Shown piece after piece: positions 8,146 to 10,992 of a stretch of DNA of 64,000 nucleotides; position 1 is the stretch's first letter; every line of letters begins with the position of its first letter. The DNA lies in the NCBI RefSeq assembly GCF_000758755.1, contig NZ_JRMV01000281.1, positions 295,981-359,980 of the forward strand, read 5' to 3'. A model generated the notes under the pieces. That model saw only the letters and a program-made list of their open reading frames with translations, did no database searches and was not told the DNA's origin. Position numbers and translations under genes: made by a program. This DNA is from Actinomyces sp. S6-Spd3. Its GTDB lineage: Bacteria; Actinomycetota; Actinomycetes; Actinomycetales; Actinomycetaceae.

Positions 8146-8181
8146 GAATGGGGCGCGGGCCCTGCGGCCAGCGCCCCATTC
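8146..8181 (-). terminator. Hairpin downstream of the glycyl-radical gene
   Basis: Perfect 11-bp arms at 8146-8156 and 8171-8181 (GAATGGGGCGC and its complement) lie 14 nt after the stop of the 83-residue gene. No strong U-tract follows on the minus strand. It may be a partial terminator or an mRNA-stabilising hairpin that sets different levels of the radical-domain and activase transcripts. Confidence 0.5.
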
Positions 8182-8194
8182 AGTCAAGCTACTC

Positions 8195-8446
8195 TCAGGC
8201 AGAGTGGTGGAAGGTGCGGGAAAGCACGTCCAGCTGCTGCTCGCGGGTGAGCTTCACGAAGTTCACTGCGTAGCCCGAGACGCGAACGGTCAGGTTCGGG
8301 TAGTTCTCGGGGTGCTCCATTGCGTCCTCGAGGGTTGCCTGGTCGAGAACGTTGATGTTGGCGTGGTACAGACCAGCGCCTTCCTCACGCTCTTCGCGGG
8401 CGGCCTTCATGGAAGCAAGACGCTCTTCGTAGGTCTTAGTTGCCAT
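8195..8446 (-). CDS. grcA: Free-standing glycyl-radical domain of pyruvate formate-lyase (GrcA-like)
   Basis: This 83-residue protein is essentially the C-terminal glycyl-radical domain of PFL. It contains RVSGYAVNF with the radical Gly58, preceded by [13 protein letters not shown] and followed by [15 protein letters not shown], nearly the E. coli PFL/YfiD ending. The first 24 or so residues are highly charged and probably helical. A strong AAAAGGAG site precedes the ATG at 8446. It lies 72 bp downstream of a PFL gene that lacks this domain, so it should supply the radical needed for catalysis rather than only repair. It is shorter than E. coli GrcA (127 residues). Confidence 0.93.
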
Positions 8447-8518
8447 TTCATTTCTCCTTTTCTTCCGGGTGGGGCCGGATAGACAAGCGGTGTTCCGTTT
8501 GCCTAAGACTTGTTTCTA

Positions 8519-10639
8519 TCAGTAGCCCTTGGTTGCATCGACGCAGCAGGAATCGTCGGGAACGAAACCTGCATCGAGGATGCCCACCAGGTTGGTGATC
8601 TGCTCGTCGCGCGTACGACCAAGACCCTGAGGGGTAATGGTGTTGGTCAACGAGATACCGTCCAGCGCGTCGTTGTAGTCGAGCTTGGCAACGGAAAGCA
8701 TGGAGGCAACCATGCCGTGAGTATCGATGCCGTTTTCCGGGTTCGCGCCAGGTGCGAAGGGGGTGCCCTTCTGGTGGCCCGAGGGGAAGGAACCGGTTGC
8801 CTTACCGTAAACAACATTCGAGGTAATGGTCAGCACCGACTGGGTCGGGATTGCATCACGGTACATGGGGATCGCGCGGATCTTATCCATGATGGTGTGA
8901 ACGACGGTTGCTGCAATGTCATCTGCGCGGTCATCGTCGTTGCCGTAGGTCGGGAATTCGCCCTCGGTACGGTAGTCAACGACCAGTCCGGTTTCATCGC
9001 GGATCGGGTAGACCTTTGCGTACTTGATTGCAGACAGAGAGTCGGCAACGATGGACAGGCCGGCAATGCCACAGCCCATGGTGCGGACGATCTCCGAGTC
9101 GTGCAGAGCCATCTCGACTGCCTCGTATGCGTAACGATCGTGGCAGTAGTGGATGATGTTCAGAGCCTCGACGTAGGTTCCGACAACCCAGTCCAGCATC
9201 TCTTCGTACTTCGCCCAGACCTCGTCAAAGTCGAGGGGGCCGTCACCCTTGATGGGCTCGTAGCCTTCCATGACCTGCTTTCCGCTCATCTCATCACGGC
9301 CACCGTTGATGGCGTAGAGGAGAGCCTTTGCAGAGTTCACGCGGGCGCCGAAGAACTGCATCTGCTTGCCGACACGCATGGGGGAGACGCAGCAAGCGAT
9401 GGCCGCATCGTCGCCCCAGTGCTCACGAATCTGCTCATCAGATTCGTACTGGATCGAGGAGGTCTCGATGGAGATCAGTGCACAGAATTCCTTGTAGCCC
9501 TTGGGGAGCTTCTCATCCCAGAAAATGGTGATGTTCGGCTCGGGTGCGGGGCCGAGGTTGCGCAGGGTCTGGAGCAGACGGAATGCGGTCTTGGTGACCA
9601 GGGTGCGACCGTCTTCGCCGAAGCCGGCATCCGACCAGGTTGCCCAGTAGGGGTCACCGGAGAAGATCTGGTCGTAATCGATGGTGCGCAGGAAGCGGGT
9701 AATGCGCAGCTTAATAACCAGGGAGTCAATGATTTCCTGGGCATCGAGCTCGGTCAGGGTACCGTTCTTCAGATCGCGTTCGAAGTAGCAGTCGAAGAAG
9801 GCGGAGAGACGGCCGATGGACATTGCCGCACCGTCCTGAGACTTCACGGATGCCAGGTAGCCGAAGTAGGTCCACTGCACTGCTTCATGAGCGTTACGAG
9901 CAGGACCAGAGATGTCGTAGCCGTAGTCGGCTGCCATCTTCTTGAGCTTCTTCAGAGCCTTGATCTGCTCCGAGTGCTCCTCGCGGTAGCGTGCCCAGTG
10001 CTCGGAGAAGGGCTGATCTGCGTAGCGATCCTTATCCTTCTGCTTCTGCTCGATCAGGTAATCGACACCGTAGAGTGCGACGCGGCGGTAGTCGCCGATG
10101 ATGCGGCCACGGCCGTATGCATCGGGAAGACCGGTGATGATGTGTGAGGAACGCGCTGCACGAATGCGAGGAGTGTAGATATCGAAGACGGCATCGTTGT
10201 GGGTCTTGCGGTACTGGGTGAAGATCTTCTTGACCTCGGGGTCAACTTCCTTACCAGCTTCCTTGATGGCGGTTTCAACCATGCGCCAGCCGCCATTGGG
10301 CATCATCGCACGCTTGAGGGGGGCATCAGTCTGCAGTCCGACGATAACGTCGTCGTCCTCGCTGATGTAGCCGGGCTTGAAAGCGTCAATATCCGCGGGG
10401 GTGTGGGTGTCAACATCGAGGATGCGAACCTTACGTTCCTCCGACAGGTAGTTCTTTTCAAGGGTTTCCCACACGCGCAGGGTCTTTTCCGTCGGCCCGG
10501 CGAGGAAGGAAGCATCTCCTTCGTAAGGGGTGTAGTTGTGCTGAATGAAGTCACGCACGTCGATTTCTTCGGACCAGTGGCCCCTAACAAAACCGTCCCA
10601 TGCGTCGGTAGTGACGTCGGCGGTCTGCTGATCAGTCAT
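8519..10639 (-). CDS. pflB: Formate C-acetyltransferase (pyruvate formate-lyase) catalytic core lacking the glycyl-radical domain
   Basis: The 706-residue protein has the PFL fold and the catalytic pair C416-C417 in ACCVSPM, followed by GKQMQFFGAR. PFL converts pyruvate and CoA to acetyl-CoA and formate under anaerobic conditions. E. coli PFL has about 760 residues and ends with RVSGYAVRF...; this one stops after NLVGILDAGFVPDD...KGY with tandem TGA-TAG stops, so the radical loop is absent. The missing part is encoded as a separate gene with its own ribosome-binding site 72 bp downstream. The ATG at 10639 is preceded by GAGGG. The upstream region carries a long inverted repeat. No sign of recent decay is seen: the core is intact to its end. 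Confidence 0.95.
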   Translation of the reverse strand: MTDQQTADVTTDAWDGFVRGHWSEEIDVRDFIQHNYTPYEGDASFLAGPTEKTLRVWETLEKNYLSEERKVRILDVDTHTPADIDAFKPGYISEDDDVIVGLQTDAPLKRAMMPNGGWRMVETAIKEAGKEVDPEVKKIFTQYRKTHNDAVFDIYTPRIRAARSSHIITGLPDAYGRGRIIGDYRRVALYGVDYLIEQKQKDKDRYADQPFSEHWARYREEHSEQIKALKKLKKMAADYGYDISGPARNAHEAVQWTYFGYLASVKSQDGAAMSIGRLSAFFDCYFERDLKNGTLTELDAQEIIDSLVIKLRITRFLRTIDYDQIFSGDPYWATWSDAGFGEDGRTLVTKTAFRLLQTLRNLGPAPEPNITIFWDEKLPKGYKEFCALISIETSSIQYESDEQIREHWGDDAAIACCVSPMRVGKQMQFFGARVNSAKALLYAINGGRDEMSGKQVMEGYEPIKGDGPLDFDEVWAKYEEMLDWVVGTYVEALNIIHYCHDRYAYEAVEMALHDSEIVRTMGCGIAGLSIVADSLSAIKYAKVYPIRDETGLVVDYRTEGEFPTYGNDDDRADDIAATVVHTIMDKIRAIPMYRDAIPTQSVLTITSNVVYGKATGSFPSGHQKGTPFAPGANPENGIDTHGMVASMLSVAKLDYNDALDGISLTNTITPQGLGRTRDEQITNLVGILDAGFVPDDSCCVDATKGY

Positions 10640-10992
10640 TTTCCCTCTTCTCGGTTGCCGTGGCTTTCAGGCTGAAAACCTCCGGTTGATGAGGTTCGGC
10701 CTCATCTTTGGTGCCGTGTTGGGCATCTGGTAATAGTGTCCCTCACTTGATGCCCGGACAGCATCTTTATGCACCTTTCGCCTATATGTGGTGTCTAACA
10801 ATCTGGGACTTTTGTCGCTCCGGTCACTATGAGTATAGGACAAAAGTCCCTAACGTGAAGTGGTTGAAAGTTGCGTATCTCAAAGTGCTTGTTGAAACCC
10901 GTAGGGGAGAGCTTGGCACAGTAGACTCATCACAGTTCAAGGAAAGAAATGTCCGCATTGATGCGTGCGTGACACCTGATGCAGGGGGAAAA
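10640..10992. other. Divergent intergenic region between pflB and hom (353 bp)
   Basis: The region has no gene. It holds a 7-bp stem with a 5-nt loop at 10688-10706 (GATGAGG/CCTCATC), a long-range GGGCATC/GATGCCC pair at 10721-10755, and a 12-bp inverted repeat at 10805-10850. For pflB a weak promoter can be drawn on the minus strand, with TATACT near 10832-10837 and TTCACG about 16 nt further upstream. For hom, TATAGG at 10834-10839 with TTTGTC 17 nt upstream is possible. Both would overlap the 12-bp repeat. Confidence 0.5.
10805..10850. promoter_or_regulatory. Inverted GGGACTTTTGTC sites, putative operator of the pfl locus
   Basis: GGGACTTTTGTC (10805-10816) and its exact complement (10839-10850) are separated by 22 nt. 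Each arm is itself close to a palindrome of the form GGAC-N4-GTCC, reminiscent of DosR/NarL-type response-regulator boxes (GGGACT...AGTCCC). The position overlaps the candidate -10/-35 elements for pflB, which fits control by oxygen or redox state. The regulator identity is inference. Confidence 0.5.

Follow-up and report, generated by a model that had tools for sequence, protein, structure and literature searches.

How does a pyruvate formate-lyase (PFL) work when its gene ends before the glycyl-radical domain? The question is raised by a locus of Actinomyces sp. S6-Spd3 (contig NZ_JRMV01000281.1), which we analysed within a window, the whole 64-kb stretch of DNA that contains it. Three genes follow one another there on the minus strand, encoding a 706-residue PFL core, an 83-residue small protein and a 293-residue activase. 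We conclude that the first two most likely form an obligatory two-subunit PFL, a core with a separate radical subunit, and put the probability of this reading at about 0.88. It draws on the gene structure and its conservation, the homology of every part, the finding of no other PFL-type radical domain, and a fold model.

We identified each part by profile and pairwise alignment. The core scored 1019.8 bits against the pyruvate formate-lyase model TIGR01255 (cut-off 994.2), covering positions 1–681 of 744, and also matched the PF02901 domain model. Aligned with phmmer, it corresponded to residues 8–694 of Escherichia coli PFL, with Cys416-Cys417 opposite Cys418-Cys419. The small protein corresponded to residues 701–758, with Gly58 opposite the radical glycine Gly734. 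It passed the NCBIfam model for GrcA2 (NF008341; 166.6 bits, cut-off 145) and failed the models for E. coli-type GrcA (TIGR04365; 83.1 against 170 bits) and for GrcA3 (NF038360; 95.5 against 158 bits), the last being the family of a second type of split described below. The activase passed the PFL activase model TIGR02493 (298.7 bits, cut-off 231.75). Judged as a PFL, the locus has the adjacent catalytic cysteines and, with both parts present, the overall fold, while the radical domain sits on the next gene rather than in the same chain. The initial annotation, made from the sequence, had described a core that keeps its cysteine pair and stops at TGA-TAG ahead of the radical domain, then a separate protein bearing Gly58 that has its own ribosome-binding site 72 bp downstream, then the activase. 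The end of the core alignment at E. coli residue 694 and the matches of the small protein and activase bear out this description, and alignment to both E. coli PflB and GrcA placed the two parts on PflB and the shared radical domain on GrcA.

No PFL-type radical donor other than the small protein turned up in the assembly. A second PFL model found a single PFL-like domain, that of the truncated core, and on this ground we rejected a second, full-length PFL in the assembly. The Gly_radical model gave two matches, which are the two halves of the split PFL. The same holds across 42 genomes of the order with the same split: Gly_radical matched both halves in all of them and nothing further in 30, and the extra match in each of the other 12 was the anaerobic ribonucleotide reductase NrdD (12/12), a different enzyme from PFL. 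With the PFL model, each of the 42 yielded the two halves and no other PFL radical domain. Because the halves co-occur and the extra Gly_radical matches are NrdD, the small protein is best read as an obligatory radical subunit, as the initial annotation had proposed. Its family name, 'autonomous glycyl radical cofactor GrcA2', and the radical domain that it shares with GrcA would instead fit a spare part, which like E. coli GrcA (YfiD) serves solely to rescue oxygen-cut PFL. However, there is no full-length PFL to rescue among the matches in this assembly, no second PFL radical domain in any of the 42 genomes, and no pass for the E. coli GrcA model. For this assembly, which is 96.5% complete, the spare-part reading has already been contradicted, and we regard it as very unlikely.

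We then compared relatives, with searches for split PFL that covered Actinomycetota. PFL was searched for in 297 genomes sampled from the larger order, and split and fused forms were counted by hand from the table of matches; 50 loci from the fused genomes were also fetched and read. PFL matches were present in 134 genomes, with 42 split, 84 fused and eight partial or other glycyl-radical matches. Split genomes had a core ending at about model position 680 and a separate match to the last part of the model, whereas fused genomes had one full-length match. A truncated core and a separate radical domain thus occurred together in 42/42 split and 0/84 fused genomes, the latter with one PFL-model match each at that threshold. 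All 42 split loci were read, and each carried a small open reading frame (ORF) directly 3' of the core, after a gap of 1–124 nt (the value of 1 nt comes from L090, where the chosen start may be too early). This type of split, which we call class A, was spread over six family codes and 17 genus codes; of the 24 PFL-bearing genomes in the family that includes the window's host, 20 had it.

A scan of named genomes gave at least 80 loci, and 75 of those listed were split by the script's rule, a figure that is no frequency as the loci were chosen by two peptide patterns. Among these 75, the core of L207 is interrupted by an internal stop, and the best core segment of L159 and L169 spans the C-terminal part only. 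The split hosts include Actinomyces, Schaalia, Trueperella, Arcanobacterium, Corynebacterium, Rothia, Propionibacterium, Brachybacterium and Dermabacter, among others. In the nearest named relative (L149), the junction is identical over 75 nt while the core differs at 192 nt, and the small gene differs by three synonymous and no amino-acid changes.

These comparisons also bear on whether the two parts are ever joined. In the window, the small ORF and the core lie in one frame, 24 codons apart, with the tandem stop in between and 72 bp from the core's stop codon to the small ATG, and one relative (L172) is naturally a single frame across the junction; stop-codon read-through or ribosome hopping could on this basis join the parts in the cell. 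Among the 42 loci, however, the gap length modulo 3 was 0 in 10, 1 in 15 and 2 in 17, some loci with both parts in one frame had additional stop codons between them, and the small start was preceded by a Shine-Dalgarno match of at least four bases in 42/42, a count to be read knowing that such matches also guided the script's choice among starts. We therefore rejected conserved read-through, which is highly improbable; because the gap modulo 3 is mixed, the shared frame in the window looks like chance. That the split is an assembly error or a recently broken gene, as a shared frame with nothing but stop codons in between might suggest, has a negligible chance, since it is common to 42 genomes of six family codes with gaps in all three frames and its junction is identical in L149. 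The natural split supposed by the initial annotation is in this way upheld over a sequencing error or frameshift.

Several individual genomes deserve mention. Two of the same order, L105 (G134) and L106 (G227), had PFL matches that came in several pieces and look like broken genes. In L172 (Corynebacterium sp. Marseille-P4321), one open frame spans what used to be the intergenic stretch and continues, by way of the extension, into the radical domain; the stop of its relatives is absent and the former start ATG is still inside. This single genome may reflect a natural re-joining or an error. PFL genes about 55–62% identical to E. coli PflB were present on IMG/VR contigs classed as viral (L235–L250), some of them longer than 100 kb, and the gene on one contig (L244) was out of frame. 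A split PFL was found in Varibaculum vaginae (L199). For V. cambriense, a Varibaculum genome paper reports no evidence of PFL (PMC4177395). Splitting may hide PFL from annotation.

We next considered the fold of the pair, modeled with AlphaFold2 as one chain (mean predicted local distance difference test, pLDDT, 83.3; predicted template modeling score, pTM, 0.87). The model superposed on E. coli PFL (1mzo) over 747 residues at 1.7 Å, from model residues 9–814 to chain residues 4–758, and the superposition ran up to the C-terminus of E. coli PFL. The N-terminal extension of the small protein formed a helix at 737–750 (block pLDDT 81–90), and the linker was disordered. The model shows compatibility with the canonical PFL fold and not docking as such, because fused relatives were in its alignment.

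Taken together with the alignments, this suggests how the enzyme might work. The large subunit would carry the barrel, the substrate and coenzyme A sites and the cysteine pair, and would lack the radical-holding glycine, so that the core would be inactive without the small protein. The small subunit would add the missing barrel strand, the glycyl-radical loop and the C-terminal helix, presumably docking in the cell at the site that the radical domain occupies in one-chain PFL. PflA would place the radical on Gly58, most likely after the core holds the small subunit, and Gly58 would pass it to Cys417 in each turnover. The N-terminal extension probably helps the small subunit to find the core or to stay on it. 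More speculatively, an oxygen-cut small subunit could be swapped for a fresh one. A study of E. coli PFL offers an experimental parallel: a core truncated at residue 695, after activation alongside a separate radical protein, was as active as the wild type (PMC8683613).

Some points weigh against an obligatory two-subunit enzyme. The same study reports that the E. coli core cut at 695 binds YfiD too weakly to measure and is activated 32-fold less than the oxygen-cut enzyme (PMC8683613), which means that a natural split is not automatically efficient. The read-through chain and the fused relatives in the alignment bias the structure model to the fused arrangement, and an earlier model from a thinner alignment (pLDDT 63.6) was poor and was left unused. 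The Gly_radical model is not exhaustive, as it missed the NrdD of this very genome, a divergent one found only with NrdD's own model. Finally, the genome is a 281-contig assembly with a completeness of 96.5%.

The small proteins carry an extension ahead of the radical domain, and 115 of 117 class-A small proteins shared a motif in it: an aromatic residue, an arginine three positions later and a methionine four after the arginine. The 117 are not all independent, as some genomes are in both sets (L151, for example, is L078). One of the two misses reflects a wrong start picked by the script (L084), and the other a start that may be too early (L090). The consensus KTFDERLASM of the extension resembles RTKDEQVTNL in the core's last helix, a score equaled or exceeded in 31 of 10410 column shuffles; against fused PFLs, 39 of 3001 shuffles reached the score of the extension. 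One alignment placed the extension opposite the same helix of fused PFLs, at nearly equal distance from the radical domain, whereas in a larger alignment that helix lay opposite the core's tail instead. The resemblance between the extension and the core's last helix is weak in magnitude. We infer that the extension may be a docking helix and perhaps a duplicated copy of the core's last helix.

Where did the small gene come from? All seven class-A small proteins tested passed GrcA2 and failed the E. coli GrcA model. In a phylum-wide draw of 396 genomes, a sample of a larger set, two passed the GrcA2 cut-off, namely the window's own genome and G034; at this frequency the family is not a common one in the phylum. 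Class A, compared over a radical block of 56 residues, had mean identities of 84% and 82% to the two fused groups nearest to it in the order, 79% to other fused PFLs and 65% to E. coli GrcA. The block of E. coli GrcA was itself closest to E. coli PFL (80%). Because the small proteins fall, by radical-domain identity, with PFLs of their own lineage, the small gene is, as judged from these identities, a descendant of that lineage's PFL and not of an E. coli-type spare part. The name given to GrcA2 understates its role, which from the gene context is that of an obligatory subunit.

A second type of split, class B, was found in more distantly related Actinomycetota of two family codes (f35 and f56; L127–L146). 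A truncated core is again followed by an 83-residue small protein, a layout seen in 20/20 loci read, out of 21 of this type in the 396-genome draw. The three class-B small proteins tested all passed GrcA3. The break lies about 13 residues earlier than in class A (E. coli numbering), ahead of a helix that class A keeps on its core and that class B has on the small protein, and most class-B cores end in a C-terminal tail, often acidic and with cysteine. The Protein Data Bank (PDB) entry 38lb ('Formate acetyltransferase') matched a class-B core to near its end, tail included. Both 38lb and 38la have PFL chains, and two radical-domain searches gave no match in these entries. Compared by sequence matches, they are class-B-like and not of the window's type, and cores of the class-B kind seem, by these PDB entries, to have been solved structurally by others already.

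We built a quick core tree from 85 of the 113 core rows (42 class A, 35 fused and 8 of the 20 class B). The eight class-B rows clustered as one group next to E. coli PFL and were separated from class A by fused PFLs, although the program flagged the join of class B and E. coli as long branches. Class-A cores formed nearly one clade, with three fused PFLs (L121–L123) inside it. We do not claim re-fusion of these three, as a single clade of the 42 split rows was not rejected (approximately unbiased test, p-AU 0.554). Two independent splits of PFL would be the simplest reading.

Signals for expression were examined next. The initial annotation had suggested that the dosage of the small subunit is set by its own translation start, and this found no support: predicted pairing to the anti-Shine-Dalgarno sequence was no stronger than that of the core, with means of -9.3 kcal/mol for the small gene and -9.6 for the core over the 42 loci. 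Pairing was stronger by more than 0.5 for the small gene in 16 loci and for the core in 20; by this measure, we saw no sign that translation favours an excess of the small subunit. A stem of at least 7 bp lay within 110 nt of the small gene's stop in 35/42 class-A loci compared with 3/42 control stretches inside core genes, and this hairpin, which precedes the activase gene, may keep the level of activase lower. In the gap that separates the core from the small gene, such a stem occurred in 10/42 loci and is not general.

The promoter region of the core (Table 1) holds two copies of GGGACTTTTGTC, the only two matches in the window at up to one mismatch; two or more occurred in 6 of 100 shuffles. 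They are close to the DosR hypoxia box consensus (PMC2275270). DosR-like boxes (up to two mismatches, within 400 nt) were enriched upstream of class-A cores (16/42 cores; 11 of 2260 single-base shuffles). We rejected a tie between these boxes and the split because they also lie upstream of fused genes (10/51, E. coli included) and are absent upstream of class B (0/20).

Table 1. Features of the split PFL locus and its surroundings (window positions)
Feature	Position	Strand	Basis
PFL activase, pflA, radical S-adenosylmethionine (SAM), 293 residues	7176-8057	-	TIGR02493
Hairpin, 11-bp perfect stem, between small gene and activase gene	8146-8181	-	sequence
Putative radical subunit, 83 residues, NCBIfam GrcA2	8195-8446	-	NF008341; Gly_radical model 51-106
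Codon of radical-bearing Gly58, GGC	8273-8275	-	sequence; opposite E. coli Gly734
N-terminal extension, codons 1-24, helix-like	8375-8446	-	motif, structure model, likeness to core's last helix
Ribosome-binding site AAGGAG of small gene	8454-8459	-	6-base match to AAGGAGGT, 7 nt 5' of ATG
Tandem stop TGA TAG, the fission point	8516-8521	-	sequence; identical in L149
PFL core, pflB-like, 706 residues, without glycyl-radical domain	8519-10639	-	TIGR01255, PF02901, E. coli PFL alignment
Codons of catalytic pair Cys416-Cys417, TGC TGC	9389-9394	-	phmmer alignment opposite E. coli Cys418-Cys419; sequence
Two inverted copies of GGGACTTTTGTC, promoter region, DosR hypoxia box-like	10805-10850	.	pattern scan

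Why the gene came to be split is a separate question, to which we see two answers. The split may be neutral, a duplicated 3' end having let the radical domain of the parent gene be lost and left a self-dependent pair with no gain against oxygen. The extension resembles a helix that the core still keeps, as if there had once been two copies of that region; the core group comes close to a single clade; and fused relatives persist in 84 genomes. Against this, the split is retained in 17 genus codes and a second one is seen at another break point, both of which suggest some benefit and are not decisive. We judge neutral fission to have close to an even chance.

The split may instead be an adaptation to oxygen. 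The E. coli study describes how oxygen cuts PFL at the radical glycine and how YfiD rescues the cut enzyme, for which it must displace residues 696–733 (PMC8683613). In a split enzyme, the oxygen-cut fragment would leave with the small subunit and a new 83-residue subunit would take its place, with no stump to displace, unlike the case of YfiD. Consistent with this, the core ceases to resemble E. coli PFL after residue 694, and the stretch that YfiD must displace lies on the small part. Many named split hosts also belong to genera known to tolerate oxygen: Actinomyces, Corynebacterium, Rothia and Brachybacterium are such genera. On the other side, there is no sign of extra small-subunit dosage, 84 of the order's genomes have a fused PFL, and the class-B split occurs in lineages that may be Coriobacteriia and, if so, are strict anaerobes. 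Support for the oxygen story is circumstantial and mixed, and we hold adaptation to be possible, with a chance somewhat short of even.

If the two-subunit reading is true, the radical domain of this PFL could undergo activation, damage, removal and replacement independently of the core, which is impossible in one-chain enzymes. It would also correct the implied role of a named protein family across many Actinomycetota genera, and would explain how annotation could miss PFL or label half of it as a repair factor. A broader picture is tentative and, in our estimate, more doubtful than not: PFL would have split at least twice in Actinomycetota, GrcA2 and GrcA3 would be the radical subunits, oxygen damage would be met by their exchange, and the extension would be a docking handle that the artificial split lacks. 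Among the matches listed in a search of openly licensed literature other than preprints, we found no article dealing with GrcA2 or with a naturally split PFL. Such silence counts only weakly as a sign that none exists, and the PDB entries hint that the kind is known to someone.

The system can be set beside several known ones. E. coli PflB (1h16, 2pfl) aligns with both parts of the window's PFL, the cysteine pair and the radical glycine being kept, and is one chain where the window's enzyme is two. E. coli GrcA/YfiD (TIGR04365; 6owr) is likewise a separate small protein with a PFL radical domain, but it accompanies a full-length PFL, and none was found alongside the window's small protein; NCBIfam GrcA2 (NF008341) is the same family as the class-A small proteins under a name that implies a repair cofactor. 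There is also an engineered counterpart: E. coli tPFL (residues 1–695) with YfiD is broken at nearly the same residue as the class-A core, and is man-made, with weak binding and 32-fold poorer activation (PMC8683613). The window's pair would be the natural counterpart of that split with its hardly binding parts, making it directly testable how a separate radical domain is recognized and activated, and class A differs from the artificial pair in having an N-terminal extension of its own.

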